From assembly GCA_022925895.1 (NCBI GenBank), contig JAKSYS010000657.1, positions 1-34,794 of the forward strand: a stretch of DNA of 34,794 bases. The letters run 5' to 3'. The notes beneath the pieces were generated by a model, which was not told the origin of the DNA, searched no databases, and saw only the letters and a list, made by a program, of their open reading frames with translations. Position numbers and translations under genes: made by a program. Origin of the DNA: Fragilaria crotonensis (Eukaryota; Bacillariophyta; Fragilariophyceae; Fragilariales; Fragilariaceae). Position 1 is the stretch's first letter. Each line of letters starts with the position of its first letter. Below are positions 1-27,815 of the stretch, in pieces.

Positions 1-85
1 ATCGATACGCTGCGGCAAGACATCTAGCCTTGGCCAACTCAAGCCCAACTCTTCCGTACCACATCAACATATCAGCATATCAGAA

Positions 86-1302
86 ATGGGAAAGATCCTT
101 GTTGCCATTGCTCAGGCATCCCTCTATTGGGTTCTCTTGAATGCAGCACTTTCGCAAGTTCTTGTGGTTTACCGATGGAACGAATACAATCCTACGCTTG
201 TTCAAGACATTGTGAAGGAAGTTATCATCGAAAAGCCACTAGATCCAGTTATTGAAGAAGAGATTGTTGTCAAGGAAGTTGCGTCAGAATCAGTGGGAGA
301 AATTTTGGATGCCCACACGAAGAGTCGATCGAAGCAGCTCTTGTTGGCATTATACGATGCCAAACACCAGCAAATGACGCAACTTCAAGAATCTGAAGCA
401 AAGTCGCTCTATTGGTCCACCAGTCTATACAACCTTCAACTTATCCAAAACAAGAATTAGCATCAGTAGCGACAGACGTCAATTCGCTTCAGGCACTTCT
501 CATTCAGCCAACATTGGCGGACACTAAGGATGACGCTCTGATCAACCTCTTGGACCAGTCATTGGAAGAGCTTGATAACGTTGTTAACTCGAACGCTTCG
601 AGCTCACTTCTCAAGACCTTGGTCTCTTTGAACCTGACACGCGTTGATGCGCCTACAGTGACCAAGGACTGCCCAACTGCTCCGACTGGAGTTCGAGCCT
701 CAGGACTAAAGGCCGCCGTGGGGACAGTTCAGCATGCGCTTCGGGACCAAAGGAGGGGGAGATCGCTCGAACGATTGTTGAGCGAAATTAATGTGGAAGA
801 TTACATGGCCCTGCCTTTGCCAGAGTCAGCGTTGGCGGACGCGCCTGATCAACAACAAAGCAAATTAGCGAGCAAGCCCACACCTGATTCAGAGGAGAAT
901 CGCATCTGTCTACTCGAGGAGGATCTGATGGACATGGTGGATCTTGCCCTCCAGAAATCACCCACAGACCTACAATTGGCGCTGACCAAGTTTGTCAAGG
1001 ATCTCGATCCCGACACTGATGTAATTCTAGATGCCTTGCTGCCCCCACCATCTTCCTCCATTCGCATGGCACCTCGTGCTTCCACTCCTACGAATTTGCG
1101 ACAAGCGCTCAATTCCGAAGTGCTCTTTTACGGATCAACCAAACTCATCGACACGCTTGTCGATTGGGTCAGCGGCTACAACGATGAACTGGACGGTGTA
1201 CTGGATTCCCTGATTCAAACTGCCGGTGAACAATCAGTGGGACGCATCGTCGTTTCGAAATTGTTGGAGGTAGCCGGGCGAATCCTCTTCCCACACCTGT
1301 AG
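86..1302 (+). CDS. Gene A: unknown protein with N-terminal signal/anchor, one frameshift
   Basis: I do not recognise the family. The ATG at 86 opens a frame with a hydrophobic N-terminus (about residues 3-27), either a signal peptide or an anchor, followed by an acidic segment. That frame stops at 460, while a second frame is open to the TAG at 1302. The second frame has no ATG near its beginning, so the two belong to one gene. One extra A in the AAAA run at 447-450 would join them into about 405 residues with smooth composition. A GT-AG intron at 423-460 would also restore the frame, but 38 nt is very short. The C-terminal half is helical and acidic, with Leu/Asp-rich segments. A decayed copy of codons from about 860-1150 lies at 4450-4730, which supports this being a real gene. 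No catalytic motif is visible. Confidence 0.6.
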
Positions 1303-1574
1303 TGAATCTATACAATACCACTCAAGCGGGTATATTGCTAACGAGATGTAAAGCAAGTAGTAAATCCGTCAAACAGGAAGGGGTTAGGGGTTAGACACAC
1401 AATTTTTTTCTCGTCATTGGCGAGAAGGTTGAAGGCACATTCCCATGAGACACCACGCGGGTTAGCGAGCTACCAAAGACACTGTTGGAAGGAATTGTTT
1501 GAACCATGTAAGCAGCATTTCCGACTGCGTCGTATGGAGTACTACAGTACAACGTAAGATACCTACATGATGAC
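1303..1574. other. Intergenic, 3' flank of gene A
   Basis: No gene is supported here. The stretch contains two copies of a TTAGGGG-like heptamer near 1381-1396, too few to call telomeric, and no ORF with a credible start. Confidence 0.5.
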
Positions 1575-1790
1575 AAGAGGGCCAAGGCGAAGGTTAAGTA
1601 TTGAGAGTAGAACCCCTACCGGTAGAATGGTACAAACTTGACTTTTAAGTTGAGGCCATTCCTTGGATGCGAGGCATTGCAAGGAATGAGCCAATCGCTT
1701 GGCAGTCTTTCTTCCCCAGCAGAAGAAGAATCACCAAATACTGCTTCACTATCAACACAGACTGTAGCCGAAATATTGCCTCGCATTTTG
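1575..1790 (-). pseudogene. Decayed 3' end of a gene B duplicate
   Basis: This stretch aligns by eye with 4755-4970, the 3' flank and last codons of the intact gene B. Both share the AAACTTGACT block, the GAGGCCATTCCTTGG block that encodes the B C-terminus on the minus strand, and the CAGTCTCTTCCTTCCCCAG-like block, in the same order. The stop codon of B is altered here and small indels break the frame. Similarity fades after about 1770, so only about the last 50 codons survive. It lies directly downstream of intact gene A, just as intact B lies downstream of the A fragment, so it is a relic of a block duplication. Confidence 0.75.
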
Positions 1791-2926
1791 GTCCTGACTT
1801 TGACAAACCCGTTGTGGATGAGGATAGTTAACACACACACAAGGTGCATCTACAAAATCTGTTCGGAAGGAAACTCACGTTTAAGTGACGTCAAATCATC
1901 ATTGTTATGCTTGTTTTCATTGAAGCGCATTACGGCATAACAAACTTACAGGAACAAGTCCCGGCAACGTTTATGTTTTGGGTTTAATGAACTTGCGCGA
2001 GGCGTTGTTAGCGGATCATTATCATTATGCTTTATTTATATGAATGCGAAGTGACTTGACAGAGTCTCCGACCTCCTCTGATTTAACTCATGCAAGGCGA
2101 TGCTTTAAATGTTCTAACATGTGGGTCTAAGAACTATCGATGGCACTCGCCTAAACTCTGCAATCTGCTGTCTGGGGATGCACACTAGTTATTAGCAAAT
2201 CTCCATTCTGGCTCATTGTAACAGCGTATGATTGCTTGGATTGATGCAGCTGCGTGCATAAATTTCTGGCTCAAATCTACTTCATAAAAAGCCGAACAAC
2301 GATTAATCCGCGCATCTCGTAATTCTTTCCAATTCCCAACTCAATGAGGATGGATGCGACCGAGCTATCTCATCGTTCGAGAGATATCGGTGGGCACTAT
2401 GTGACCGTGGTTTTATGAGATATTGCACTGCTTATTTGTGCAAGCAAAAACCGTCAAAGAATATCAAAAACAAGGGTATGTTAACGGCGGTATAACGAGA
2501 GACCGGCGAAATGGGCCGGCAAAACTCTTAGGTGACAGAACGGTGTCGATAATAGCTATCATATGCATAGGCGAGACCTCCGTATCGGTCTATCATACAG
2601 TTTACAGACAACATACCAGTACTGTACCTTTTAAGTACTGTACGAGTAAATCAGTCGTACTAGTCGTAGTAGTATCTTTCGGGTCATATAGAGCACGCCC
2701 GACAATTCTGAACATTATATAACAACTCACACATAGACAGATTGGCGCACTGCCGTTATCTAACGGACGAGATTTGTGTATGAGTCTGAAGTCTGCATCG
2801 GTTGAGGAGCACAAGGTGAGGTTTTGGTGTTAGTGATCGCCCAAATCCCGGTGCAGTACAGATAAGGCGACCGCATTGCACCCATTTCACCCTGCGCATC
2901 GCATATTGCATCCATCCATTATATCA
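1791..2926. other. Intergenic region upstream of sulfotransferase 1
   Basis: No supported gene. A palindromic TGACGTCA lies at 1886-1893, and a cluster of GTAC/AGTACT motifs occupies about 2612-2680, some 250-310 bp before the sulfotransferase start. Short open frames here begin with non-ATG codons or show no family signal. Confidence 0.5.
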
Positions 2927-4141
2927 ATGAGCAAGACCGTGAACAGGATGTGGGCTAATAAATTGTCCAGAGCAAGAGAAGGCCGCAATGTGTTGCGCAA
3001 TGTGATTCTTACTTGTATACTTTCCTTCTCAGTTCTTACTGTATCGATGGCACCGCGATCGGTGGTCCACGTATACCAGGAGGAAAACAAGTCATCGACA
3101 GATTTTACTCGATTCTTGGTTGAGCTCGCTCGATTGCCAACTAAGGATCTGCAAAAGAAACTGTACTATGATGACGTCTTCGAACTTGCAGCGCTCGAAA
3201 CAGCACAAAGAAACTCTTTAGTTAAGTCATGTCCGCTCAAATCCTTACCTACATGGCTCCCACCTTCGGCACTGTCCCCTCGGGTCTATCATCGCCCTTC
3301 TCATGTCATTTGGTACGAGCATTTGAGCAAAGCTGGTGGGACGTCATTTTGCAAGCTGGCGCAAACCAATTTGAACAATACCACAGAAGTTCCTGCCCAC
3401 TACTGCATGCCAGGCGATGGTCGATTGAAAGATGGACGTGTGGGTCTTTGGAACAATTCCAAGCTTCTCAAATACAGAGAGAAGAAGCCCCTCATCAGGA
3501 TCGTATCCAATGAGTGGAACCCATTTCCACCAGACCGATGGAAGTTGGAGGATCAACTATACTTCGTCACCACAATTCGAGACCCCCTGGATCGACTGGT
3601 TTCCGCCTATGAATATCAATTCTGGGGTATTATGCTCAATAAAAAACCCAAAAAACCAACGTTTGACGAATGGCTTGTGAAGAACCGAGAAACCTCGTTT
3701 AACATGTCGGCGCTCAATCCGGCATTGTACCTTCACATAGCACGATATAACTTCATTGCTTGGAAGTTCAGCAACGGTACCATGCCCCAGGGTGACCGCA
3801 ACGCCACCGATTCAATGGGTTTACCAGTGGGAGTGACTCGCGACGAGGAAGATCAATGGCTCGCTCCGTTTGTCATGGCGGCCAAGACGTTATCCAAGTT
3901 TGACCTGGTGCTAGTATTGGAGCTCATGCCCAGTTATTCGTCCAAGATGTTAGTCGAGACCCTCGGTTGGAACAACCTTTCGGAAATTCACGTCGTATCA
4001 GCGGGGAAAGTCCATGGCAGCAGTGCTTCGCGAGCGCTAACGAAAGACGTGTACGATGCCTTGTGGGAAGGTAATCGATTCGATATGATCCTGTACCTGT
4101 GGATGAAGGCTGTGCAAATGATCAGGTCACAATGCAAATGA
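2927..4141 (+). CDS. Type II membrane sulfotransferase, copy 1
   Basis: This is a probable Golgi carbohydrate sulfotransferase that moves sulfate from PAPS to a glycan. The ATG at 2927 gives 404 residues; the open frame runs further upstream but without an ATG. A short basic cytosolic tail precedes a membrane anchor at about residues 24-41. The PAPS 5'-phosphosulfate loop is EHLSKAGGTSF (131-141), the eukaryotic Hx3KxGGTS pattern. The 3'-phosphate motif is TTIRDPLDRLVSAY (215-228), with Arg218, Asp219 and Ser226. Several N-glycosylation sequons fit a lumenal domain. The pattern is closest to heparan-type 2-O/6-O sulfotransferases, but the acceptor cannot be told from sequence. A paralogue with almost the same catalytic domain lies at 14122-15438; this copy has two extra codons right after the 3'-phosphate motif (YEYQFW against YQFW). 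Confidence 0.9.
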   Translation: MSKTVNRMWANKLSRAREGRNVLRNVILTCILSFSVLTVSMAPRSVVHVYQEENKSSTDFTRFLVELARLPTKDLQKKLYYDDVFELAALETAQRNSLVKSCPLKSLPTWLPPSALSPRVYHRPSHVIWYEHLSKAGGTSFCKLAQTNLNNTTEVPAHYCMPGDGRLKDGRVGLWNNSKLLKYREKKPLIRIVSNEWNPFPPDRWKLEDQLYFVTTIRDPLDRLVSAYEYQFWGIMLNKKPKKPTFDEWLVKNRETSFNMSALNPALYLHIARYNFIAWKFSNGTMPQGDRNATDSMGLPVGVTRDEEDQWLAPFVMAAKTLSKFDLVLVLELMPSYSSKMLVETLGWNNLSEIHVVSAGKVHGSSASRALTKDVYDALWEGNRFDMILYLWMKAVQMIRSQCK

Positions 4142-4300
4142 ATGGACCACTTTCATCTCGCATTGTTGTACATACAAAGGATGGACAGTTTTGTTTTGTC
4201 TGCGTGAAGATGGAGAAGGGCAGCTGTTGGTGGGTGTATTTTGTCTACCGCTGCCAAGACAGTATCGTGTTTAAGAATAGATTGTGGACCAATCAAGGCT
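4142..4300 (+). repeat. Duplicated 3' flank of sulfotransferase 1
   Basis: The downstream sequence matches 15439-15600 after the second sulfotransferase, including GGATGGACAGTTTTGTTTT and GTTTAAGAATRGATTG blocks. The duplication therefore extends past the stop codon into the probable 3' UTR. Similarity is lost soon after about 4290. Confidence 0.75.
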
Positions 4301-4449
4301 ACGCGATCTGAACACATGGTGAATACGCAGCTGTTCAGTTCACCTGACATCAAGGCTACTTGTTGCCTGGACATCTGTACATATATTAACTCTTCCTCGA
4401 CCGTAAAGGAAGTTGCCACTTATAGTTCTCCCTGATTTACAGACATCAA

Positions 4450-4730
4450 GGCAACGTAGCAGGCAAGCTCACTTCTGATGAAGTGGTGTGCCGTGTCAGC
4501 CTGCTTGAGGAGGTTGTGATGGAGACCAGAAATCAAGCTTTGACCAATAAGAGTTTTGACTTCGTTCGTCAACGATCTTGATCTCAACTGTGATATGATT
4601 CTAGATACCTGGCAACCTGCTGTCTCCTCCATCCACATCGATTTGTTTGTAATTGCGTGCTTCCAGCCGTACGAATTGCGACAAGCACTCAATTTCGAAG
4701 TGCTCGTTTACCGATGAACCAAACTCAGGA
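4450..4730 (+). pseudogene. Decayed C-terminal fragment of a gene A duplicate
   Basis: It aligns with about 860-1150 of gene A. Shared blocks in the same order include GCTTGAGGAGGWTSTGATGGA, the GATTCTAGATRCC block, TCCTCCATYC, and the ACGAATTGCGACAAGC-to-AATTYCGAAGTGCTC block. Indels and stops destroy the frame and the last part of the gene is missing. It lies immediately before the intact gene B in the same relative order and orientation as gene A and the B remnant in block 1. Confidence 0.8.
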
Positions 4731-4823
4731 AAACCGAGACGACAGTGAAAATTAAGACAAAGGCAAGGCTAAAGTATTGGGAACAACATCTCATTATTGG
4801 GAAAAAACTTCAAACTTGACTAT

Positions 4824-5825
4824 TTATTGAGGCCATTCCTTGGGTGAGAAGGCTTTGGAAAGAATGCGCCAATCACTGGCAGTCTCTTCCTTCCCCAGAA
4901 GTAGAAAGTCATCAAATACAGTGTCCTGAGCTCCATTACCAACACGGACTGTAGCGGTAGCCGCCAAGCCGCAAACATCCATTGATACGATCGAATCGTG
5001 TGCGCGACAGGTGGGTGCATGGGGACGTTGAGATTCCACCCCTTCCAAATATGTAGAGAGCGAGACTTCGAGCAATGATCCCGCAGGCGCCGACCAATCA
5101 TCTTCATCATCATGAGTGTCGTCATCGCGAGGCCGAGATCCTACTGCAATAAGAGACGCACGTGGATCAAAGAGCTGTTCTGCCTTGGCCCGTCCAACTG
5201 CACCCCCGCCATGTTCCACATCGAGGTACGTTTGAAGAGCTTGATTCAAGGAACCGAATGCACTCCTGCTAGTCCTCTGAGCAGCTTCTCCCCCAATGAC
5301 AACTTCTCTTAGAATCAGCCAACCATCGTTTGCAATCATTGAGTTATTCCTTTCATCAGGATCCAACCTTAAGAGAGTCAAATACCTCTGGTAACCATCA
5401 ACACCCAACAACTTGACAAGTGCTGTTCTATCGTCTGACAACGTCATGGACAACAGTCGTGGTGTCATGATGCTGGCTGTGTTCCGTGACCCAAGCGAGG
5501 AATTGGTTCGTTGTTCAAACTCGGCCTTGGCGGTTGTGGCTGTCCACCCGAAGTGTTCATCATGTCGCCATATCACACCCTGTGGGTGCCACGTGGTGGA
5601 GACCGTGTCCAGTGCCGACGCGGCCCAACCATGAGACGACTCGACAAGTCGTAAAATGTTGTTGGAGCATTGCGCCGCTTCGAGACCGACTTGCACAAAT
5701 TGTCGAGGACCACTGGTAGTAGCCATCATCATGGGGCTGTTGTTTCCTCCGTGTGTCATGTGGTGCCGGACTTGATATGAGGCAAGTGCGGCACGTCTTG
5801 TTGCAGTAGAGACATGAAGGATCAT
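4824..5825 (-). CDS. Gene B: tandem NTF2-like (lumazine-binding-2/SnoaL-type) protein
   Basis: A single uninterrupted 333-residue frame starts at the ATG whose first base is 5825. Residues about 189-328 look like the putative lumazine-binding NTF2-like family (Pfam Lumazine_bd_2 type): a long first helix ending in TYLD, a FDPRASLIAVG strand, SMDVCGLAATATVRV, then FDDFLLLGKEE and DWRILSKAF. Residues about 46-178 appear to be a second, more diverged copy of the same alpha+beta fold (TWHPQGVIWRH, YLTLLRLD, DGWLILREVVIG). Such folds usually form cone-shaped pockets in small-molecule enzymes or binding proteins; no catalytic residue can be assigned. No transmembrane segment is evident. Internal Met23 or Met32-34 could be alternative starts. 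A remnant of a duplicate 3' end lies at 1575-1790. Confidence 0.85.
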   Translation of the reverse strand: MILHVSTATRRAALASYQVRHHMTHGGNNSPMMMATTSGPRQFVQVGLEAAQCSNNILRLVESSHGWAASALDTVSTTWHPQGVIWRHDEHFGWTATTAKAEFEQRTNSSLGSRNTASIMTPRLLSMTLSDDRTALVKLLGVDGYQRYLTLLRLDPDERNNSMIANDGWLILREVVIGGEAAQRTSRSAFGSLNQALQTYLDVEHGGGAVGRAKAEQLFDPRASLIAVGSRPRDDDTHDDEDDWSAPAGSLLEVSLSTYLEGVESQRPHAPTCRAHDSIVSMDVCGLAATATVRVGNGAQDTVFDDFLLLGKEETASDWRILSKAFSPKEWPQ

Positions 5826-6295
5826 TTTGTTGACTTTGATATTTGAATGCTTCGTCGTATGGAATAGTGATGCACCAAGTCAAGATAATAGTGAATCAGG
5901 AAGGAGGTTGCAAATTGCCGATGAAGTGAAGAAGGACAAGAAGATGAGACTAAAACTGCAACTGGAACCCGTTGGTGTCAAGGGTCAAGTAGCCTCCCAG
6001 ACTCGGCTCTGTCTGGCAAAGATCGCACGCAGCTGTCAAAGGACCGACATCCGGAGGTTCCGGAACTTTGGCTTTATGGGCGTATCGCGTAGCTGTACGG
6101 TGGACACAGAGCGATTATCTAAATAAAAAAATTCGCAGCCCCCCTCTAGATGATTCTCATGCAAGTGGAATGTTGCGCTCATCATAGATATAATGTAAAA
6201 CGTGAATTCTTTGGATGCCTAAGGACAAATCAATTGTTACGACATTTCGAGAATTAATCGATGATTCGGATGAACTACTTAGGGATAACCGCAGA
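5826..6295. other. Intergenic region upstream of gene B
   Basis: This is the 5' flank and probable promoter of gene B. A 99-codon open frame on the plus strand (5827-6126) starts at a non-ATG codon and shows no family signal, so no gene is called. Confidence 0.45.
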
Positions 6296-6402
6296 AGCCA
6301 TTGGCTTCGCGAAGCCATTGGCTGCAGCCATTGGCTTCGCAAAGCCATTGGCTGTAGCCATTGGCTTCGAAGCCACTGGCTACGCAGCCATTGGCTTCGC
6401 CG
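6296..6402. repeat. Palindromic GAAGCCATTGGCTTC array, copy 1
   Basis: Five to six tandem, slightly variable copies of AGCCATTGGCT with TTCGCGAA, TGCA or TCGA spacers. Both GAAGCCA-T-TGGCTTC and TGGCTTCGCGAAGCCA are palindromes, so each strand can fold into nested hairpins. The same motif recurs at 13411-13500. Translated, the array gives a meaningless SHWLR/AIGC repeat, so it is not treated as coding. Confidence 0.85.
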
Positions 6403-7187
6403 ATCTAGTCAAGGAACGTGTTTTCCAAAAAAAGAACTCGACACAAATTGGAACAATAAAGAAACTTGTGCTCTATGAAATATATGTGTGGTACAGTATA
6501 TACAATACACGTAATGGGTTGTCGGTTATCGCTTTATCGGAGTCGTAGGTCTCATCTATGTAAGAGAGTATTTGGTTCTACGTACCTGCTAGTAATACTG
6601 TACACCCTGCAAAGCAAGTGTGACGTCAATTTGGCACACGTTCTTGTTATTGATGCAGGATATTTGAGTACTACCGGTAGTACAAGTACTCCGTATAGTT
6701 GATGAGATTGCTGGCTTGTTGTTCATATCGTTGATTGTACACCGGATCACAACAAGGACAATGGGAGTTTGAATCATTCCTTGATGGGGGGGTGCAGCTA
6801 ATGTGCCTCCTTCATCAGATAGCATAGCAGCACGACAGCACCATTGACCAGCCAAGATCTCCCGTTTTGCATCTTCGTCGACGAGGATCTTGAGCTTGGA
6901 CTTGACTGCACCACTAGTGGTGAAAAGCTGAGTTTGTCTGCGAACACCAATTTCAATCACGATGCTACTTACACTTGTAAATACATGAGAAAGAAGATGG
7001 ATCCTACTACTGGTCATGTAGTACTTATGTACTAACTATTAACTGTGTCTGAATTGGTGTATGGTCAACACAAGAATGACTGCAACAGCTATGGAAGATT
7101 GATTCACGATAAGTCACACTTTGTTGGCGACATCACGAGAACAACTCACAGAAGAATTTTGGATTCCCCATACATTTCGGATTAGCA
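6403..7187. other. Intergenic region upstream of the repeat-protein gene
   Basis: No supported gene. It contains a TGACGTCA at 6621-6628 and a GTAC-rich cluster at 6660-6700 with the palindrome TACTACCGGTAGTA. Open frames on either strand lack any recognisable domain. Confidence 0.45.
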
Positions 7188-9561
7188 ATGGAAGGCGGTA
7201 ACTTTGGTTCTTTTCGCAACGAATCATCACCGACAGGTAAGAAGAGGGCGGATGATCAAAACCTGTGTCTGAAAAGGGAGCGACAGCTTTTGCGTGACGT
7301 CGAACTATTTGGAGGACTCCACAGTTGTTCTGTGAAGGCTTTGTGTGACAGGAAACCGGATGACTATGGAAGACCGAACTCTGCATTGAGAAAAGCAGTG
7401 CGAAACAAAGTGAATAAATGGAAGAATTTGAGCCCTGAAGCCTACCAACGTCGCGTAGTTGAAGCATTTGGTGGCAACACTGCGTCAATTCAGAGACTCT
7501 CGGACGCGCCACTTTCACCACCATTGGCACACTCACCACAATTGGCACACTCTCCACCATCACGGCAAGCAGAGTCGGCACCGTTTGCACTACAAAGAAT
7601 GATGAGGTCTCCAGGAGGGATCGTTCCATACTCTACTACGCCACCATCCGCCAGCAGCAGCCTTATGATTGCTATGCCTGGCGGAACTGTCACAAAAGAA
7701 GAAATGTACATCCATGAAGTTTTGGCTGATTCTAGCAGGTTTGGTACGTGAGAGGAGGTGCTCCAGAGGGTGATTTTTGTCTTTTTCTCACACCAGCATG
7801 ACTTGCTTTTTTGAAATGAATTTAGTCGAGATCGATGTTGACATTGATCGTCCGGAGCGTAACCGTGAAGCCATTATCTTCTACTTTACTGGCAAGAAAC
7901 ACGAAGGCAAGTTGCACAACGGCTTTTCGATTCAAATGTCGGTGGATCCTCGCGATGCGAGAGCTGGACTTTACCGAGCTTATTTGATGGCCGGTAGCCC
8001 CCACTTCGTTTTCATCAAAGCGCCTGGTCTAAGTGCCAGCTTTCGAGTGGACCATGCTGAAATCAAGAAAAGAGATAGGAACGCCTGTCCTCGAATCCAA
8101 GAGGCTATTGACTTGAATCGAAATGATGTTGAGAATGATGGTAAGCGCGTCGCGCAGCACTTTCTTCTCAAATTTCCTTCGTACCTCCACCTGTCGAATG
8201 CTATCTACTCACCTGACGCAAGGGGGGGACGGATCCAAGGAGTGATTACACCATATCCTATCAAAAATGAGGTTGGTGGAAAAGATAACGTCAATGTGAT
8301 GTGTCGCATTGCTTGGAGAATTCATATTGTTGAAGCGACAATGCGAGTTGTGGAGGAGGTCAATACTGAGGGTAAAAGTGAGGAGGACGACATGGCGGAG
8401 CAACTTGCAGGTATGATTTTATAAGCAACTTTGAATGATAAATTATAAATATATTCTCACCCACCATTGAGCATAGCATGTTGCTTCACTTCTTCTTCAT
8501 TGCCAGGGTCCGGTAGTAACGGGCTTCTTGCCGATGCCATGCAAACCCCACATCCCATCCGCTTACCTCCTGTACCCACTGTTGACATCGTCAATCAAGC
8601 TGCTTCTGCTACTTCATCTGAAAGAAATCCTTTCGTTGTCGGTGGCATTGTCCAAGTCTCATCAAATACTCCCACCAACACCAATGGTGATGCGGGCGTT
8701 GCACTGATTGATACCATGATGGCGGACTTTGTGCAATTTCCCAACAAGCGCCCTCGCGAATCTGAGGAGGAGCTACGTGGTGATTCTGGGGAGTTCTTGG
8801 TACAGCGCCCGCGTGAAAATGACGAGAAAGATGATAATTACTGCCCTGATCGTAGCGGGGCTTCCGGTGCTACACATCCCCCACATCCCATCCACTTACC
8901 TCCGGCTCCCCCTGTTGACATTGTCAATCAAGCTGCTCCTGCAACTTCACCTCAAATTAATCCTTTCATTGTCGGTAGCATTATCCAAGACTCGTCGAAT
9001 GCCCGCACCAATACCAATGTTGATCCGGATTCTGCACTCGTTGATTCCGTGATGGCGGCGGACTATGTGGAATTTCCCAAGAAGTGCCCTCGTGAATCTG
9101 AGGAGGAGTTACGTGATTATCCTGAAGGGTCCTTGGTGCAGCACCCACGTGAAAATGATGAGAAAGATGATAACTACTGCCTTGATCGTAGTGGTGCCGG
9201 TGCCACGAAGCCCTCACATTCCATCCACTTACCTCCTGTTCCCACTGTTGATGTCGTCGTCGATCAGGCTGTTTGCATTGCTACTCCTCCTTCTTTCAAT
9301 CTCGGTGGCATTGTTGAAGGCAACATAGCTTTCCGCAGCGGTGATGTGGATGTTACACTTGATACCGTGATGATGGAGCATGTGCAATTCCCAAAGAAGC
9401 GCCCTCGTGAGTTTAAGGAAGAGCAATGTTGTGATCGTGAAGAGCCCTTGTTGCAACGCCCTCGTGAAAACGAGGAGGAAGATGATGATTACTCTTCAGA
9501 AGAAGGAGATTACTTTGTAGTAGATGATGATTTTGATGAAGTCGATGACAATTCGCTCTGA
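7188..9561 (+). CDS. Three-exon unknown protein with 111-residue C-terminal tandem repeats
   Basis: I do not recognise the family. Exons 7188-7743, 7826-8410 and 8507-9561 join in frame to 731 residues. The introns are 82 nt (GTACGT...TTTAG) and 96 nt (GTATGA...GCCAG), and each acceptor chosen is the one that keeps the frame open. Exon 1 has a basic, helix-rich N-terminus (KRERQLLRDVELFGG and a RKAVRNKVNKWKNL block), then Ser/Pro-rich sequence. Exon 2 encodes a compact, mixed alpha/beta-looking region of about 195 residues. Exon 3 is three tandem repeats: units at 8539-8871 and 8872-9204 are exactly 333 nt each, and a third, more diverged unit runs from 9205 to about 9510. Each unit has a HLPPVPTVD-like start, a FPKKRPRE-type basic cluster that could be a nuclear localisation signal, and an acidic RPRENDEKDD end. 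The protein ends in an acidic tail. Confidence 0.75.
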
Positions 9562-9905
9562 TCTATGAGATAACTTTTCTATGTTGCCGCTGTATTGATT
9601 TGGAACATCATATACCGGTAGGATATATTAATCTTGCTCTTCGAGCCAATTGAGAGTGTAGCTACAGTACTGATTGGAACCAAGACTTGAACCTGAATTT
9701 ACAGGTAACAAAAATGAATTCAACATTATAGACAGCGTGTGATTGTCCTTCAGCCCTTCAGCTATAGAGAGCCTAATCAGAAATCGTGATGGGAACCAAG
9801 ACTACATGGTGAACTTGCTTGTACACCGATCACCACAAAATTCAATCACTCATAAAGCAAGCTCACAAACGATCATAAAAATCAACCACCGTGTTCCAGG
9901 GCAAA
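9562..9905. other. Intergenic
   Basis: No gene. A GGAACCAAGACT block occurs twice, near 9677 and near 9791. It may hold the left end of the Harbinger-type element, but no terminal inverted repeat could be matched by eye. Confidence 0.4.
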
Positions 9906-10639
9906 ATGGCATCTACTCCGGAACCAAGTCTCTGGAGGAATAGCAATGCACAGCGTGTCCTCCAATCACTCCTTATATCTGGTGAGATTCGGTGCACAGC
10001 TACAAGCAAGGCGCAAATGGAGGAAATATGGAACAGGCATTGTCTTCCTCGGCCAGAGTTTGCTGGGTTTCAATTTTCGAAATTCCCTGCAAGACTTCGA
10101 GCCATGCAGAAGCGACACCTTGACCAGAGGGGACATTCTGAGGTGGAGTATGCTGCACTGCTGCAGCACAGGCAGCACTTCCCAACACCGGCAGTAAATC
10201 ATCGTGGGGAGCCACAGTGGCATGGATCGGACGCCGAACGGCTTCTGAAGGCTGATGTCACGTTGAAGACTCATGAGATGATGGCTCCCCAGCAGCTTTA
10301 TCGCACTAGGATTGAGTACCAGGTTTATCCATTGGAGGTGTTTAGGAAGCACATCCACCAAGAAGTTCGCTTGCAGAAACTTCTGCTGCAGTATCGCAAG
10401 AACCCCCGGTAAACAACAGAAACCAGACTGGATGGATGACTTGCACTCATCGCTAGATAACCATAACATCTTCTTTTCTCAATAGAGCTTGTTCTCCGCT
10501 AGTAGGAGCCATGGGCACTGCTGGCGACTTCATTGAACGCTCCCAAAGCTACGAAAGTCTTTTTTCCATACTACAGTCATTGAGGGACATGCATAGGGGC
10601 CAGCAGTGGAAGTCATTGTTCCGTATCAGTTGCAGTTGA
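9906..10639 (+). CDS. Small protein with a duplicated W-S-A-R-L...EF/EY...F module
   Basis: The ATG at 9906 has a good context (AAAATGG); an upstream GTG is not used. The preferred model has exons 9906-10408 and 10486-10639 (218 residues) around a 77-nt intron with GTAAAC and a TTCTTTTCTCAATAG acceptor. If the intron is retained the protein stops at 10412 (168 residues). Two copies of one module are visible. Copy 1 covers about residues 10-70 (W10, S13, A15, R17, L19, then W42, PEF at 50-52, F60, RL at 63-64). Copy 2 covers about 105-158 (W105, S108, A110, R112, L114, then LY at 131-132, EY at 137-138, YPL at 141-143, F146). I recall similar modules in uncharacterised proteins of algae and marine invertebrates, without known function. 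It lies on the same strand just before a Harbinger-type transposase, so it could be that element's accessory DNA-binding ORF; that is inference. Confidence 0.55.
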
Positions 10640-10823
10640 AAACCAAGTAGCAGTCCGTCATTGCTCCTCGTTATCAAGTTTGAAAGCACTCACTCACGAA
10701 TCAAACACCAAAATCCTGCTGGAACATCGTGATTATGTACACCTGGTTGCATATCGTGAACACGCTGAAATTGTTGTATGCCTTCATAACAATCAATCAT
10801 AAAATCAATTTGACAAAGCAACA
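10640..10823. other. Spacer between the module protein and the transposase
   Basis: AT-rich spacer with no open frame of note. It probably carries the transposase promoter. Confidence 0.4.
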
Positions 10824-11906
10824 ATGGCTCATCGCATCATTACATCAGAAGATTTCCTCCGAATCGGTCTTGTTTTGTCAGGCTTTGGCATCACTAGACA
10901 ATTGACAGTGGAACCAGGAACAAATGTTCGTCGTTTCAAATCCCACTATGGGCCATCTCCAGTTGTCTGCGCAGCCATCTGGGCAGATTTGCTTGCCGCT
11001 GACAAAGAGGCTTGTATTGTTCCAGTTCCTGGAGCACTTGATAAGTTTTTCCTGTGCCTTAACTTCCTTAAGACATACGCAACAGAGGAGAAACTGTCTG
11101 GATTTTCAAAATTACACGAAAAGACCGCTCGAAAGTGGGCTTGGTTTTTTGTCTCCAAGTTGCAAGCGTTGAAAGCAAAGAAGGTGAGTTTCAGGAGTGC
11201 GGTGCATTCTTTCTTTCATTTTGAACGAAGACAAACTCACCTTTGATGAAGATTCTTTGGCCACAAGAAGCATGGACAACTTCCACCGCTCCTGGTTTTT
11301 GGTACTCTGTAGACGGTGTCCACTGTCGGGCAAATGAAATTATTCATCCGACATTGGCAAAGAACAGCAAGCTGTATTCTCACAAGTTCAACCAAGCAGG
11401 CTTCGGGTATGAAATAGCGCTCTCGCTATCAGCAAATTCAATTGTCTGGATAAATGGGCCGTTTCTCGGTTCCAAGCACGACGTAACCATTTTTCGCGAT
11501 TTTGGTCTTAAAGACAAAATGCCATCGGGAAAGAAAGGAATCGCTGACAACGGATATCGTGGTGAGAGGGGCATTCTTTGCACTCCAAGCTCACATGATT
11601 CGGCAGAGCTGCGCAAGTTCAAGGTGCGTTCTCACTTGACTACGGAAGAATAGTAGTTATTCATCACTCAGCATCGTTATTGCTTTTGTCCTTCCTCACC
11701 TCTCAATGTCTGACAAATTGCAAATTTGATCCCGACAGACCAGAGCTAGGGCACGGCATGAAACTCTTAACTCCAGGATTAAAAATTTTGGTTGTCTTGA
11801 CCAGCGCTTTCGACATGGCATGGCCAAGCACAAGATCTGCTTTGAAGCAGTTTGCGTGATTGTGCAATACGAGCTTGAAAACGGATCCCCGCTTTTCGAT
11901 ATCTGA
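10824..11906 (+). CDS. PIF/Harbinger-type DDE transposase, apparently intact
   Basis: Three exons (10824-11183, 11252-11623, 11739-11906) join in phase 0 to 299 residues. The introns are 68 nt (GTGAGT...TGAAG) and 115 nt (GTGCGT...GACAG). The catalytic triad fits the DDE superfamily endonuclease fold (DDE_4 type): Asp141 in YSVDGVHC, Asp219 in IADNGYRG and Glu250 in RARHETLNSRIK. HKFNQAGFGYEIAL and GSKHDVTIFR are the usual blocks between the first two Asp residues. The N-terminal about 110 residues contain the GPSP...W helical region typical of these enzymes. The protein ends with ENGSPLFDI, and no stop or frameshift lies inside, so the gene may be functional. Termini of the element were not located. 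The enzyme would cut and paste its DNA with a 3-bp target duplication, as known for the superfamily. Confidence 0.92.
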
Positions 11907-13410
11907 GCATGGACAAAAAGTAGACAGAGATTAACAGACGATGTCAATTCTTGAGACTAGCAACAAAGGCAACCCTTGCTTGAGAATGGAAGGAAGATGC
12001 TGAGCAAGATAGCAACAAAACATTAGCACGGAAAGTTTCAAACTATTTCTGGCCTACAAACCGGACGATGAAAAGGCACTTACTGTTTCTAGTACTTGAT
12101 ACCCATACCATTGAACTCTGTAGGCACCAGAAGTCTTGGCCTCGGAGTACAGAACTTGCAAGTGTTTTTGACCGTTGACTTATTACATGCTGTATATTGG
12201 TACTCGGCACCCTGGTGATCAACTCGAGATAGACAGTGAACACTCAAGTTGTGAATTGCTGAAGGGCTGAAGCTGATCCATGACCACATCCTAAGCCAGC
12301 ATGGATCATATGTGCCATCAAACACAAATGTCTTCCTACGCAAACTAGTAAGAACCTTGCAAGCGTTGCATTGCCACAGTCTGCGCTGGGTCTGTAAGGG
12401 TTTTGAGACCTCGAGTCTCGACGTGAACGTATCCCCCTCATCAATCAAAATTATTCCCTTGCCAACTTTGGACTGGTTCAATTCTCAGAACATCCGTCAA
12501 ATTTGATCGATACTCTTTCACTCTTTTCCTCCAGAAACAGGATGCTTCCTTTCCACACCCATCACCACCGACATCACTTCCCAACCAAATTTCAGACCAT
12601 TTTTCCGCGGCAGCAGCACGAATGAACGACCCGTCACTCTCCACTGGCCTATTAATGCAGAGTCTTCAGCAGCCCACACCAACGGGTAGCACCACAAGGT
12701 CAGGAGCGTGATCTGTCAAATCATACAGTTCCAATTCTGGCGCAAGTCGAAACAGCGATGCTGTGACGCATGTTGCCACCGACAACAAGCGTAACCCGCA
12801 GTGGTGGTTATTCAGTTGATGAAAGGGTGGGAAAAGAAAGTGTAGGTTTCTTTTGATTGCACCTGCTACCGCCACTTTTACGGAGGCCTTGGAGGAGTGG
12901 GAGATGGATCCATTGTCGCTGCAGCTAGAGTACAAACGACCACTTCGTCCACAGGATCCTCTTCATCTTGCGTCGCTTTCGTTCGATGAACCCTTTCCAA
13001 CGATACGCTTTAATGGCAGTGGGCTTGGTGTCAATCGCAGGGGGTGACTCGTGGTCACGTTATTGTGTTCAGCACTGGTGCTTGTCGCGCTTATGACAAA
13101 CGTTTGTCGGTGTCGCGAGTAGCTTGAATGATCAGATTGATGGTGAGCCTTATTGCTCCATCAAAAAAAGGGGAGGGGAGGATGAGGCCCAGCAGAACAG
13201 GGACTTGACAACGAGAGAAACCTCTCTTCCTCAACACGATGATTGTTGTTCTTGTTGATTCGTTCACCGTACTCTACTAGTACACGCTGTATGAGTGTAG
13301 TTCTCGAAGTATAAAAAATCGGAGTACCACGTACGTTGCAATGTACCAGTACTGCTATTTCACGAGCCACCAAGACTGCAAAAAACTGTCTTTGTTGCGT
13401 TTGTCTTCGC
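11907..13410. other. About 1.5 kb without a confident gene
   Basis: Candidate coding pieces exist on both strands. On plus, 12535-12698 and 12846-13047 can be joined in frame over a GT-AG gap and end in a 67-codon open stretch (MDPLSLQLEYKRP, SFDEPFPTIRFNG), but no start exon was found. On minus, 12089-12481 is Trp/Cys-rich but starts at TTG. The two overlap or compete and neither shows a known family, so no CDS is called. The right end of the Harbinger element should lie in this region. Confidence 0.4.
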
Positions 13411-13500
13411 CGTAGGCTTTGTCGAAGCCATTGGCTTCGCGAAGCCAATGGCTGAAGCCAACGGCTTCACGAAGTCAATGGCTGAAGCCAATGGCTTCGG
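13411..13500. repeat. Palindromic GAAGCCATTGGCTTC array, copy 2
   Basis: It contains GAAGCCATTGGCTTCGCGAA followed by GCCAATGGCTGAAGCC-type units, the same motif family as 6296-6402. It also contains TGGCTTCGCGAAGCCA, a perfect 16-bp palindrome. Both motif orientations occur, so the strand is not meaningful. Confidence 0.85.
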
Positions 13501-14121
13501 ACGTCAAAGTGTCCCTTACTCCTAAGTAGGAAAAATCATAACGTCGATATCTGTGTCTTAAACATCGTATCTAATAATCTGTACATAGGTATTCTATGAC
13601 ATCACATTTGTAAATATGACTTTTCACGATCCTGACATAAGAAACGATTGTTGAAACGTGGAATGATTATGCGCCGTGCAGAACGAGAAGAGATGATAGT
13701 ATGTTTAGACAGTATCCAGTAAGGCAGCAAAGCCAAACGTCCGGAACCTCCCGACTCTCATGCTAACTCGTTAATTCGGCACTGGTATCAGTACTCCAGT
13801 ACAAGTAGCTGAAACACAGCAAATGCCCAGTACAAATACCAGTAGACTTGAAGATAAACACAAATTTCACGTGCTCCGCAGTCCGACGCGATGACACGAG
13901 AAACCCGCCATCGTTTGATAAAAGGTGCGAGAGAGTACTGTACTGTTACCCAGTACGATACTCCAGTAGAAGGAGAAATGCAAAACTCCGTTGATGACGG
14001 TTGACCTCACCGGAATAAGCGCTACATCGTACTAAATTTTTCTCTTCGCCAGACATTCCCTCTGGTAACGGCTCCCGTCACTTTTAAAGTTGTTCGACTT
14101 TTCAATTATTGCGCATGGCGC
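13501..14121. other. Upstream region of sulfotransferase 2
   Basis: No gene. Clusters of CAGTACTCCAGTAC-like motifs at about 13785-13850 and 13930-13975 lie 150-340 bp before the sulfotransferase start, a position similar to the GTAC cluster before copy 1. Confidence 0.45.
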
Positions 14122-15438
14122 ATGGCACATGGCAGGATACTTGCATCTTGCATCCATAATCCATTGAGGCTGGCAGTGAATAGCAGAATGTTGGCTAGTC
14201 GATTTCCCCGACCTAGAGAAGGCATACAAATAAAGAATTCAAAGCAAAAATCGCTTAGGAACCCTTTCAAACGGCACCCTTTCCAATGTCGCAATCCATT
14301 GGGCATTGTGGTTCTTACAAGTATATTTGCCTTCTCAATTCTTACAGTGTTAAGGGCACCACTTCCGGCAGGCCACGCATACAAAGAGACCACTTCATCT
14401 GCAGATTTTACTCATTTCTTGGTTGAACTCGCTCGATTGCCAACTGCGGATCTGCGAAAGAAACTCTACGACGACGACGTCTTCCAACTTGCCAAACTCG
14501 AAACAGCACAAACGAACTCATTGATCAAGTCATGTCCGCTCGCTTCCTTACCTCCATGGCTCCCTCCTTCGGCACTTGCCCCTCGGGTCTATCAACGTTC
14601 CTCTCATCTCATTTGGTACGAGCATTTGAGCAAAGCTGGTGGGACGTCATTTTGCAAGCTGGCGCAAACGAATTTGAACAATGTCACTGAAGTTCCCGCC
14701 CACTACTGCATGCCAGGCGATGGTCGATTGAAAGATGGACGTGTTGGTCTTTGGAACATTTCCAAGCTTCTCAAATACAGAAAGAAGGAGCCCCTGATCA
14801 AAATCGTAGCCAATGAGTGGAACCCATTTCCACCAGACCGATGGAAGTTGGAGGATCAACTTTACTTTGTCACGACGTTGCGAGATCCGTTGGATCGACT
14901 GGTTTCCGCCTATCAATTCTGGGGTATTATGCACAACAAAAGCCCGTCTAAACCAACGTTCGAAGAATGGTTGGTGAAGAAGCGAGAAGCCTCATTTCCC
15001 TTGTCCGCGCTTGATCCGACACTGTACCTTCATATAGCACGATATAACTTCATTGCTTGGAAGTTCAGCAAGGGTACCATGCCCCAGGGTGACCGTACCG
15101 CCACCAATGCAATGGGTTTGCCAGTGGGAGTGTCTCGCGACGAGGAAGACCAGTGGCTCGCTCCGTTCGTCATGGCGGCCAAAACGTTATCCAAGTTTGA
15201 TCTGGTACTTATATTGGAGCTCATGTCCAGTCATTCGTCCAAAATGTTAGTCGAGACCCTCGGTTGGACCAACCTTGCAAAAATTCACGTTGTATCGTCC
15301 GGAAAAATCAAAGGCAGCAGTGCTTCGCAAGCGCTAACGAAAGACGTTTACGACGCGTTGTGGGAAGGTAATCGATTCGATATGATCCTGTACCTGTGGA
15401 TGAAGGCTGTGCAAATGATCAGGTCACAATGCAAATGA
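14122..15438 (+). CDS. Type II membrane sulfotransferase, copy 2
   Basis: Paralogue of the gene at 2927-4141 with the same catalytic layout. The ATG at 14122 gives 438 residues; Met23 (14188) is a possible alternative. The basic N-terminal tail is longer and quite different from copy 1, with the anchor at about residues 61-78. The PAPS 5'-phosphosulfate motif is EHLSKAGGTSF (167-177) and the 3'-phosphate motif is TTLRDPLDRLVSAY (251-264). From about residue 95 to the C-terminus the two proteins are nearly identical in sequence and length apart from a two-residue deletion after the 3'-phosphate motif. The catalytic residues are kept in both, so both copies are probably active. The tail, stem and anchor, which set Golgi localisation, differ most. 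Confidence 0.9.
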   Translation: MAHGRILASCIHNPLRLAVNSRMLASRFPRPREGIQIKNSKQKSLRNPFKRHPFQCRNPLGIVVLTSIFAFSILTVLRAPLPAGHAYKETTSSADFTHFLVELARLPTADLRKKLYDDDVFQLAKLETAQTNSLIKSCPLASLPPWLPPSALAPRVYQRSSHLIWYEHLSKAGGTSFCKLAQTNLNNVTEVPAHYCMPGDGRLKDGRVGLWNISKLLKYRKKEPLIKIVANEWNPFPPDRWKLEDQLYFVTTLRDPLDRLVSAYQFWGIMHNKSPSKPTFEEWLVKKREASFPLSALDPTLYLHIARYNFIAWKFSKGTMPQGDRTATNAMGLPVGVSRDEEDQWLAPFVMAAKTLSKFDLVLILELMSSHSSKMLVETLGWTNLAKIHVVSSGKIKGSSASQALTKDVYDALWEGNRFDMILYLWMKAVQMIRSQCK

Positions 15439-15600
15439 ATGGACCTATATCATCATGCATTGTTGTTAATGCTAACACAAGGGATGGACAGTTTTGTTTT
15501 ATCAACGTCAAGAAGAATATGATGAGGGCCGCTGTTCGAGAGTTTATTTTACCTACCCACAATTCAGTCTCGAGTTTAAGAATGGATTGCCCACCACTTG
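15439..15600 (+). repeat. Duplicated 3' flank of sulfotransferase 2
   Basis: Matches 4142-4300 downstream of copy 1 with small indels, marking the extent of the duplicated segment. Confidence 0.75.
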
Positions 15601-16475
15601 AGAATAAGCGATATTAACACTTCGAGACTACTCAGTGCTTCAGTCTTGTGTCATCATCCCGTTCTATGCGAAGATAGCAGAGGAGAGAGAGCTTAAGTGT
15701 CATTTGGATGTTAAAGACAGGTGGAAAGGATGCTGACAATTTGGTGGATTCCCGCTCTCCTAGTATTATTGGTAATACATCTGGAGTGTTTGGTACCCAT
15801 TTGTTGCCAAACGTTATCCAACTCTTTCAACCAACTCCTTTGTATCCTTGATCCTTGCCCAGGTCCCAACCCAACAATACGAATCCGCATCACTCCAGTA
15901 TATACCATGCAATAGAATGCTCTGCTAGTAGTAGGCACACTAAAGTGTTGCGCCGAATACTAAAAGTGTGAATGCTTTCTTGAGTACAGTACTGTATTGA
16001 TGATTCGGAACTGCGTTCCCTTGCTACAATGCACGGAGAGTATAGCTGTTTGTACGATATATATATAACTCCATTACTTGTATGCATACCAAAGGCGACA
16101 CAGCGAAGCACGATATAGATTTATGATATTTATAACATAGAAAAAGCGAAGTCGTACTCTAGGACTGCTGTAAAGTATCATGCCGACATGCAAATAACAT
16201 AATCCAATTTCTATCGAACGTGAACACCTCGCTCTATATAAAAACCATGTGGAACACGGAAAGACAATGTTACCGTTGCTGCAACCGTCGTGTATTTAAG
16301 TAACGCAAAACACTTAACAATTGTTGCATGTGTTATACATAGGTTATAGGTGAACGACTTCAACGGGATTGTCTGGCTAGGTCTACTCCGAGTCAAATTG
16401 TAGGTCGCTCATTCGAGAGATGTCAAATTGCTCATTGATCTTGATACAACGGCTTTATTCACTTCATAGAAACAA
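15601..16475. other. Intergenic
   Basis: No supported gene. It holds short AT-rich tracts (GATATATATATAAC near 16058) and the promoter of the following secreted propeller gene. Confidence 0.45.
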
Positions 16476-17879
16476 ATGAAAGCTCTGGCATTGCTCTTCT
16501 TGAAGCTACCGACGGTGGCAGCCATCCCTCAGCACAGTAGAGAATGGGGTCACGCTTGGGATCAACGTTCGGAAGCCGAGACACTCGCTTCTACTCATGA
16601 GGACGCCAGCTTCTCAACAAGAATGATGGAATCACTCGGTTCGTACAGTATGCCAACCCATTCTCCAACTCCTGCTTCCGAACCTCCAGCTGCCCCAACA
16701 AGCCCCGCCATCTGGCGCAAGGTGGGGGGCGACGTCATGGCACTTCCTAACGAATATTCCAGCCCCGCTTCGACGGCACTGAGCTCAGACGGAAGCGTGA
16801 TTGCAATCGGTGTTTTGGACGAGTCCAATCTCCTCCGGGGAGAGGTTTATGTCCACAAACTCAAAAATGCCAGTGATGGATCACAAGAGTGGGAGCCATT
16901 GGGACACGCGTTGGAAGGCGCCGTTGATAATGATAATTTCGGTACGTCAGTGGCCCTTTCAGGCGATGGAACTGTGTTGGCGGTCGGTGCCACCCAGTTT
17001 GCAAATGCATACGGCAGCGTTCCAACTGGTGGTGGTTATGCAACGGTTTACTCTTATCAAGGTGGTATGTGGGCCCCACGCGGCAAGATCGTGGGCACTG
17101 ATTCGGTTGATGGTGATGCCTTTGGCGTTCAAGTAGCTCTCTCTCAGGACGGAACGGTCCTGGCTGTCCTGGCGGCGAATTACGACTACGGGGGCGACCC
17201 AGTTGGATACGCAAACGTGTATCACTTCAATGAAGACAGTCTCGACTGGGACCTCGTCGACACCATTGATCACTGGGAAAGGAGCTATGGAGACATGGTC
17301 ATGGACCTATCTGGAGATGGACGTGTCATTGCTTTGGGGGATACATCCGATAGCGTCGCTGGTTCTATCCGAGCATGGTCGTGTGCTGTAGAAACAGGTT
17401 GTGAACGTCAGGGACAAGAGATCACCGGTGTCGATTATGAAGACCTGATCGGTAGTTCCGTATCGTTATCAGAGAATGGAAAGATCTTAGCAGTTGGTTC
17501 GCCTGGGAGCAACGATTGTGAACCGACCTGTGTCAATGTTAAAGTTTATGAGTTCATGATCGGTTCAGAGCCTGTTTGGACTCAAATTGGACAAGCGCTG
17601 AGCGGAGATATGGGATTCGGCAACAGTCTGAAACTGTCCGGGGATGGCGCGTCCTTGGTCGTCAATGGGCCGCTTTGCTATAAGGGTCGTGACTGTGCAT
17701 TTGAGGGTTACATAGATTACCAACCCATTATCCAGCTCTACCGACTAAACGCGATTGGTGTTTGGGATATGGTGGGAAGCCCATTGGCGGCAGAGCTTTT
17801 GGATTTCTCGAGTGATGGTTCTACGCTTGCAGCACACGACAAAGCGTTCGTTGTCTCTGGTTATCGACTTGATGACTAG
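16476..17879 (+). CDS. Secreted seven-repeat beta-propeller (FG-GAP/WD-like) protein
   Basis: A single 467-residue frame from the ATG at 16476. Residues 1-17 form a signal peptide (MKALALLFLKLPTVAAIP), followed by a Ser/Thr/Pro linker at about 60-80. The body then has seven repeats of a hydrophobic-xLSxDGxxLAVG strand motif: TALSSDGSVIAIG, VALSGDGTVLAVG, VALSQDGTVLAVL, MDLSGDGRVIALG, VSLSENGKILAVG, LKLSGDGASLVVN and LDFSSDGSTLAAH. Each is followed by a second strand with aromatic residues (VYVHKL, ATVYSYQG, ANVYHF, VKVYEF). Seven blades predict a closed beta-propeller. No transmembrane segment follows, so it is probably secreted or wall-associated. The ligand is unknown. No intron is needed. 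Confidence 0.85.
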   Translation: MKALALLFLKLPTVAAIPQHSREWGHAWDQRSEAETLASTHEDASFSTRMMESLGSYSMPTHSPTPASEPPAAPTSPAIWRKVGGDVMALPNEYSSPASTALSSDGSVIAIGVLDESNLLRGEVYVHKLKNASDGSQEWEPLGHALEGAVDNDNFGTSVALSGDGTVLAVGATQFANAYGSVPTGGGYATVYSYQGGMWAPRGKIVGTDSVDGDAFGVQVALSQDGTVLAVLAANYDYGGDPVGYANVYHFNEDSLDWDLVDTIDHWERSYGDMVMDLSGDGRVIALGDTSDSVAGSIRAWSCAVETGCERQGQEITGVDYEDLIGSSVSLSENGKILAVGSPGSNDCEPTCVNVKVYEFMIGSEPVWTQIGQALSGDMGFGNSLKLSGDGASLVVNGPLCYKGRDCAFEGYIDYQPIIQLYRLNAIGVWDMVGSPLAAELLDFSSDGSTLAAHDKAFVVSGYRLDD

Positions 17880-27712: not shown

Positions 27713-27815
27713 GTATCCATGATTGTGTTCCCAGTCGTTTCTGTGCCATTAATGTGTTGTTCTACAACACGAAGTGAATTTCGGCGTGACGAAGTAGTGT
27801 ACGTTCATGTGCTAA

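Follow-up and report, generated by a model that had tools for sequence, protein, structure and literature searches.

A tandem duplication of three neighboring genes in a diatom, with each copy decayed in a different gene

The window, by which we mean the whole analyzed stretch of 34,794 nucleotides from Fragilaria crotonensis (contig JAKSYS010000657.1), contains two blocks in which a gene of no recognized family (A, plus strand), a second gene (B, minus strand) and a sulfotransferase gene (plus strand) are each represented by a gene or by a remnant. Three collinear pieces of block 1, namely part of A, the 3′ end of B and the sulfotransferase, are found again in block 2, in the same order and orientation. 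In particular, positions 852–1147 (+) of A aligned with 4443–4727 (74% identical, blastn E = 5.6e-35), with a Smith–Waterman score of 99 that none of 300 dinucleotide shuffles reached (mean 10.5), and the B pair, 1584–1768 and 4760–4955, was 79% identical (blastn E = 1.2e-24), with a score of 75 that was likewise reached by 0/300 shuffles (mean 9.8). The sulfotransferase homology spans 2906–4352 and 14141–15656 in two aligned pieces, the main one pairing 2979–4352 with 14285–15656 (84%, blastn E = 0) and a further 5′ piece pairing 2906–2978 with 14141–14218 (0/300 shuffles). The same three pairs, including both relics, are present on contig C545, which represents the second haplotype. On that contig (positions 1–40000, E ≤ 1e-3) we detected no third block upstream of A, and no fourth duplicated piece except a short local repeat and one LTR-like pair. 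A preliminary description made from the window had proposed this doubled arrangement, with coordinates that proved correct to within ~10–40 bp, and had singled out the alignments of the A and B scraps as the ones whose absence would count against it; both were found. The detectable duplication ends on the right with the 3′ flank of the second sulfotransferase (15439–15656, +, by pairwise alignment), and the junction between the two blocks (4353–4442) has no convincing match to the 5′ half of A, to the sequence upstream of A or to that downstream of the second sulfotransferase. The pattern of a three-gene tandem duplication in which each copy has decayed in a different gene is thus genuine. A scan of the window against Rfam gave 0 matches at the gathering threshold.

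Gene A (86–1302, +) gave just one weak Pfam match, below its cut-off. It had been described as intact in block 1, which does not hold for the sequence as assembled: the frame from the ATG at 86 meets a stop at 458–460, and the N-terminal part (86–460) and the main open reading frame (397–1302) lie in different frames. In C545 the frame is broken elsewhere, the breaks falling at different short single-base runs in each contig, and there are 0 substitutions between the two over 1,215 aligned bases, which suggests that the breaks are sequencing indels. Among the best-scoring candidates in the genome, A has five matches (the window, C545 in two pieces, and two relics). The scrap of A reported at 4450–4730 is a dead copy, aligned at 4443–4727 (+). 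Four of its five gaps are not multiples of 3, there are 3 in-register stops in 89 codons, and on its 3′ side block 2 lacks a counterpart of 1148–1583, having 32 bp where block 1 has 436 bp. We did not find the missing stretch in the 33 bp at 4728–4760 (best score reached by 99/300 shuffles), and the best candidate in 4301–6053, at 5850–5887 (6/300 shuffles), is non-collinear and was not counted. Differences within the A pair are spread over the codon positions (26/93, 20/93 and 26/92, or 46/186 against 26/92) without third-position bias, and to judge from this evenness the constraint on gene A itself over the duplicated stretch looks weak.

Gene B (4824–5825, −; first in-frame ATG at 5825) is open in the window contig and encodes a Lumazine_bd_2 C-terminal domain (PF12893, E = 3.2e-9). 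Among the best candidates scored in the genome, only two alleles of B were found, the C545 one aligning to the 338-residue query from residue 11 onward. In block 1, the B scrap that had been placed at 1575–1790 is present (1584–1768, −) but is limited to the last ~44 codons and ~64 bp of 3′ flank. This relic is 79.1% identical to its counterpart over 182 aligned bases; four of the five gaps in its coding part are not multiples of 3, there is no in-register stop, and its differences per codon position (4/40, 8/40 and 6/40) lack third-position bias. A search of both strands of 1769–2978 for the body of B found none (best scores reached by 297/300 and 299/300 shuffles). Thus B, whose relic lies inside the duplicated unit, has been lost from block 1 as proposed. 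Between the A–B pieces and the sulfotransferase piece of block 1 lie 1,137 bp (1769–2905) that, by shuffle tests, have no detectable similarity to the body of B or to the B–sulfotransferase spacer of block 2, and that hold a short genome repeat at about 2261–2340. Because sequence at a divergence (K) of about 0.3 aligns elsewhere in the locus, deletion by itself does not account for this segment, and replacement is needed as well. B and the sulfotransferase stand head-to-head, with 594 bp between their first in-frame ATGs in the haplotype that lacks the transposon described below, so that in block 1, where B was lost, sulfotransferase 1 is also preceded by unrelated sequence.

The sulfotransferase is retained in both blocks, as had been claimed, and both copies are open in the window contig. 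Copy 1 occupies 2927–4141 (+; ATG at 2927, the ATG common to copy 2 at 2948) and copy 2 occupies 14122–15438 (+; ATG at 14122, the common ATG at 14188), and their proteins are 83% identical. With a match to Sulfotransfer_2 (PF03567) of 26.5 bits (E = 8.3e-6) against a cut-off of 22 bits, copy 1 resembles the carbohydrate sulfotransferases, and there is a weak match to heparan sulfate 3-O-sulfotransferase 1 (1zrh, E = 1.8e-4); the sequences here are nevertheless divergent, copy 2 falling below the Pfam cut-off (19.1 bits, E = 0.0015). Differences between the copies number 54, 34 and 82 at the three codon positions (400 each; p = 1.5e-5 for a bias that the relics do not share), and Ka/Ks was 0.33–0.37 in four cross-paralogue comparisons. 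The two alleles of copy 2 gave a Ka/Ks of 0.94, from only 10 changes, and in the C545 allele the reading frame is interrupted close to the 5′ end. The four sulfotransferase sequences group by locus at 136 sites, and at 7 others copy 2 of C545 agrees with copy 1; we therefore rejected large-scale interlocus gene conversion, those 7 sites lying within 13 bp and representing either a very short patch or clustered mutation. The last 21 codons are identical between the two window copies and might be another patch.

Sulfotransferase 2 had been described as pushed about 8 kb away, and the spacer between it and B indeed contains a DNA transposon of the PIF/Harbinger superfamily (6054–13750; 7,697 bp) with terminal inverted repeats and the ends GAGGTTCCGGA...TCCGGAACCTC. 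The element is absent from C545, and comparison with the empty site there delimits target-site duplications of CCG on the left (6051–6053) and right (13751–13753). It is a heterozygous insertion between the two haplotypes; what had been put down to later insertions in block 2 is later, but is a single transposon rather than several. A match to the endonuclease domain DDE_Tnp_4 was detected at 11225–11653 (E = 3.9e-7) and in a related element, L044 (E = 3.7e-8). At E ≤ 0.1 there was no Myb/SANT Pfam domain in six open reading frames of the window element (7113–7751, 7774–8424, 8449–9561, 9879–10409, 10803–11246 and 11225–11653) or in six of L044. In the family, 11 of the 14 copies with both ends found have identical 3-bp flanks (the other 3 pairs are not identical), and the left flank reads CAG or CTG in 14 of 15 cases, the present insertion having CCG. 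These largely CWG-type left flanks, the DDE_Tnp_4 domain, the short inverted ends and the 3-bp target duplication recall the NuwaI group of the PIF/Harbinger superfamily, which is known from 16 animal genomes, being confined "mainly" to animals in the abstract of the report and "only" to animals in its results (PMC4482050). NuwaI elements are described there as averaging ~4.5 kb, usually beginning GGG and making CWG target duplications (PMC4482050), whereas the diatom element is 7.7 kb long, starts GAGG, has a CCG target here and has no detected Myb/SANT domain, the comparison being one of features. The element represents a diatom PIF/Harbinger family whose target is apparently CWG. The window holds two insertions of this family that differ between homologues.

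The duplicated pieces have diverged to a similar extent. K was 0.318 ± 0.040 for the A relic, 0.245 ± 0.042 for the B relic and 0.306 ± 0.045 for the sulfotransferase 3′ flank (4142–4352, +, against 15439–15656; 74.9% identical), and Ks between the sulfotransferase paralogues, which the preliminary description had proposed as a check, was 0.316 ± 0.039, the same as the relics within error. The four values are homogeneous (χ2 = 2.09, df = 3, p = 0.55), the B relic being lowest but not significantly so, and values of 0.25–0.32 that are alike across relics, flank and synonymous sites mean that one duplication suffices. Homology, collinearity and equal divergence together bear out a local tandem duplication.

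The explanation we favor, to which we would give a probability of roughly 0.87, is a single tandem duplication followed by loss of B in block 1, death of the A copy in block 2 and, later, the transposon insertion. An ancestral segment at least about 3.5 kb long would have carried A, B converging on A, and the sulfotransferase head-to-head with B, and would have been copied once. In block 1, a deletion would then have removed all of B save its last ~44 codons, and we infer that it was here that the B–sulfotransferase spacer changed, becoming wholly unlike its block-2 counterpart. The A copy of block 2 would have died, the first 766 bp of A never having been copied or having been lost, the 436 bp on its 3′ side disappearing and the rest drifting. 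Both sulfotransferases would have been retained, the Ka/Ks between these paralogues lying well below 1, and the B–sulfotransferase 2 spacer would later have received a PIF/Harbinger-type transposon, at a CCG, on one homologous chromosome but not the other.

Compatible with this history, and in our estimate marginally the better half of an even bet, is a variant in which the duplication began inside A, at or to the left of 852, so that block 2 had a truncated A from the outset. Since A sits at the left end of the unit and block 2 preserves nothing recognizable of the gene's first 766 bp, A may never have been copied whole: positions 1–851 found nothing above shuffles in 4142–6053 and 13751–16500 (best scores reached by 101/300 and 63/300), the junction yielded nothing convincing, and one breakpoint at birth is more economical than a copy followed by a large deletion. 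Against this, the 436 bp missing 3′ of the A relic indicate that deletions do occur in block 2, and the 90 unmatched bp at 4353–4442, which also found no match in C545 5001–9226 (87/300 shuffles), leave the junction unclean either way. A marginal match of the junction within window 1–852, at 269–282 (13/14 bases, reached by 15/300 shuffles), would if real favor a whole A. Were the duplication to have begun inside A, B would be the sole complete gene lost. Accordingly, of the reciprocal loss that had been claimed, the loss of B from block 1 stands, but duplication of the whole of A is not established and the term would be overstated under this variant.

Two independent duplications, one of a fragment comprising the ends of A and B and one of the sulfotransferase, could account for the 1,137 bp without block-2 similarity that part these pieces in block 1; shared order and orientation and statistically equal divergence would, however, require two separate events that happened to coincide in age, which we consider very improbable. 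That mis-joined haplotypes merely mimic a tandem duplication is scarcely credible, since, although substitution-free indels and a mosaic pattern of divergence between contigs C621 and C545 betray an imperfect assembly, each contig has the two blocks along with the two relics, and paralogue Ks (0.28–0.32) far exceeds allelic Ks for the same genes (0.009–0.018).

Read as a single tandem duplication with subsequent losses, the locus is a case of tandem duplication–random loss (TDRL, or DRL), tidy but not new in kind. In this model of gene-order change, neighbors are copied in tandem and different genes are lost from each copy (PMC5745709). Here too, several neighbors were copied, losses fell in different genes with relics as witnesses, and a new order, A–sulfotransferase–B–sulfotransferase, resulted. 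The TDRL literature that we found deals nearly entirely with animal mitochondria, whereas this is a nuclear-type diatom locus at which one gene is kept twice and A was perhaps only partly copied. The locus captures, at a legible stage, gene order midway through change by duplication and loss, with relics that can still be aligned, and offers both haplotypes and a neutral-divergence yardstick in one place.

The head-to-head arrangement raises the possibility that B and the sulfotransferase share a two-way promoter. In block 1, all sequence more than ~40 bp ahead of the start codon that the two sulfotransferases have in common would have been replaced by the same change that took away the start of B. 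If removal of the start of B thereby gave sulfotransferase 1 new regulation, the loss of B and the double retention would be coupled, which would explain why the sulfotransferase alone was kept twice; we consider this coupling rather doubtful, but promoter exchange through a neighbor's deletion is a testable idea about the double retention of one neighbor. The heterozygous transposon now divides the same B–sulfotransferase spacer in block 2.

Self-comparison of the window recovered the A, B and sulfotransferase pairs alike, bearing out the preliminary description, in which a three-gene block was read as present twice. Block 1 consists of gene A (86–1302, +), a B relic (1584–1768, −) and sulfotransferase 1 (2927–4141, +), and block 2 of an A relic (4443–4727, +), gene B (4824–5825, −) and sulfotransferase 2 (14122–15438, +). 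The matches anticipated between 860–1150 and 4450–4730 (A), and between 1575–1790 and 4755–4970 (B), are present as 852–1147 with 4443–4727 (68% identity including gaps, E = 5.6e-35) and 1584–1768 with 4760–4955 (73%, E = 1.2e-24); neither alignment score was reached in any of 300 dinucleotide shuffles. The sulfotransferases match over 2979–4352 and 14285–15656 (84%, E = 0), with an extra 5′ match between 2906–2978 and 14141–14218 (0 of 300 shuffles), and copy 2 carries about 66 bp more than copy 1 in its 5′ region.

The two blocks most likely arose in one duplication event. Corrected divergence was 0.318 ± 0.040 for the A relic, 0.245 ± 0.042 for the B relic and 0.306 ± 0.045 for the sulfotransferase 3′ flanks (4142–4352 and 15439–15656), and the Ks between the two window sulfotransferases, a check that had been called for earlier, was 0.316 ± 0.039; these four values are homogeneous (χ2 = 2.09, p = 0.55). 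The remaining three cross-paralogue sulfotransferase pairs gave Ks values of 0.282–0.311. Allelic Ks, determined against C545, the contig of the second haplotype, is 0.018 and 0.009 for the sulfotransferases, and the duplication therefore long predates the divergence between these alleles.

Both relics are dead. Gaps that are not multiples of three make up 4 of 5 in the A relic of the window and 4 of 6 in that of C545, where 3 of 89 and 2 of 92 aligned codons, respectively, are stops; of the gaps in the B relic, 4 of 5 (window) and 2 of 3 (C545) are frame-breaking, and the 37 and 38 aligned codons include no in-register stop. A third-position excess is absent from the A relic (Fisher p = 0.56) and the B relic (p = 1.0) and present in the sulfotransferase pair (p = 1.5e-5). 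Allelic differences are densest in the relics (17/285 in A, 5/185 in B; genes: A 0/1,215, B 11/994, sulfotransferases 10/1,188 and 10/1,256), which lends weak support to decay, because haplotype divergence is patchy and the spacers are low too (0/228, 0/426 and 2/1,119). Between window 1–29470 and C545 8375–28846 this divergence forms a mosaic, with 250-bp bins free of substitutions in 1–1250 and 25001–28250, and bins diverging by about 2–22% in 15501–18750 and 9–22% in 20501–21500; either loss of heterozygosity at mitosis or collapse of the two haplotypes in the assembly could be responsible.

Gene A had been called intact in block 1, which the assembled sequence contradicts: the frame from the ATG at 86 ends at a stop at 458–460, and the main ORF, of 301 codons, lies in another frame. 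This break is missing from C545, in which two different ones occur elsewhere in the gene. Since these indels come without substitutions (over 1,398 bases aligned between window and C545 there are only two, both at the very end, where ends fray), they suggest assembly errors. Similarly, the C545 allele of sulfotransferase 2 is broken near its 5′ end by a one-base difference.

B sits within the duplicated unit, flanked by A on one side and the sulfotransferase on the other, so block 1, where little of it is left, has lost it. Nothing similar to the B body remains in 1769–2978 and nothing similar to the block 2 spacer in 1769–2905, a stretch carrying a 50–80-bp repeat found at nine other genome sites. 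Block 2 is without a counterpart of block-1 1148–1583 (436 bp versus 32 bp), and this absence, too, is a loss. A forms the left edge of the unit, and block 2 has nothing left of 852; the junction between the blocks (4353–4442) gave no convincing match, the best being 14 bp to 269–282 within A (a score reached in 15 of 300 shuffles), and A may have been copied only in part. Thus, of the reciprocal gene loss proposed previously, the loss of B from block 1 and of 1148–1583 from block 2 stands, and a whole-A copy is not established.

The 8-kb gap in block 2 had been ascribed to later insertions; insertion is confirmed, as one insert rather than several. C545 aligns to window 1–6053 and then directly from 13751 onward. 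The insert (6054–13750) is 7,697 bp long, with ends GAGGTTCCGGA and TCCGGAACCTC, and the window has CCG on either side of it, whereas CCG occurs once at this site in C545. It encodes a DDE_Tnp_4 domain, and its relatives in the genome include an approximately 8-kb element on contig C41 and short ones with the same ends. Among 15 copies examined (13 chosen from genome matches and the 2 in the window), both ends are present in 14, and the 3-bp flanks are identical in 11 of these 14, one of the others being offset by a base and two being CTG/CAG. On the left side, 14 of the 15 copies are flanked by CAG or CTG, and the 6054–13750 insertion by CCG. A CWG target is the hallmark of NuwaI, a group described in PMC4482050 from 16 animal genomes; the insert belongs to the PIF/Harbinger superfamily, an assignment made to superfamily level only. 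Within it, an ORF at 8449–9561 has internal repeats spaced about 333 bp and no Pfam match. Between the ends of the C41 element, an ORF (L044:914–1357) with a Biotin_lipoyl domain (2e-14) is possibly a captured host gene fragment. A second element of the same family (24211–24958, 748 bp, one mismatch per end, CTG on both sides) is absent from C545, where the empty site has one base changed.

Copy 2 has no ATG corresponding to the first in-frame one of sulfotransferase 1 (2927); the conserved start codon probably lies at 2948 in sulfotransferase 1 and at 14188 in sulfotransferase 2. Ka/Ks is 0.33–0.37 between the paralogues and, with 10 changes each, 0.31 (copy 1) and 0.94 (copy 2) between alleles. 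In sulfotransferase 2, the 10 differences detected between alleles are confined to 14929–14986, and at 7 of the 10 sites, within 13 bp (14937–14949), the C545 allele agrees with sulfotransferase 1, reflecting either a tiny conversion patch or clustered mutation. Sulfotransfer_2 matches in the genome (62.1 Mb, 881 contigs) number 29 when each exon is counted separately, with copy 1 represented by both of its alleles; the two sulfotransferases are therefore a minor branch within a broader family. The genome's assignment to a diatom is supported by its chlorophyll-binding-protein genes (61 PF00504 matches, again with exons counted separately); the closest PDB chains to one genome ORF are FCPI-7 (297 bits) and Fucoxanthin chlorophyll a/c-binding protein Lhcr11 (294 bits), which we take to be from the diatom Chaetoceros gracilis.

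Tandem duplication would have eased selection on each gene of a pair, with B dying in block 1, A dying in block 2 and both sulfotransferases being retained. B and the sulfotransferase are transcribed divergently, with 594 bp between their first in-frame start codons in C545, so that the change removing the B start in block 1 would have been accompanied by different sequence upstream of sulfotransferase 1; that this new sequence drove retention of sulfotransferase 1 is a guess. The locus is best described as a case of tandem duplication–random loss, as defined in PMC5745709, and illustrates well a type of change that is already known. The literature consulted on this process is mainly mitochondrial, and that on reciprocal or differential loss includes nuclear work (for example, PMC2134927).

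Towards the end of the window, 31576–34323 is densely packed with nested inverted repeats, with arms as long as 88 nt (99% complementary), and its G+C is below that of the rest of the window. A stretch of C545 absent from the window (28847–35291) carries a pair of direct repeats (about 325 bp each, 98% identity, starts 6.1 kb apart) and resembles an LTR element present on that haplotype.
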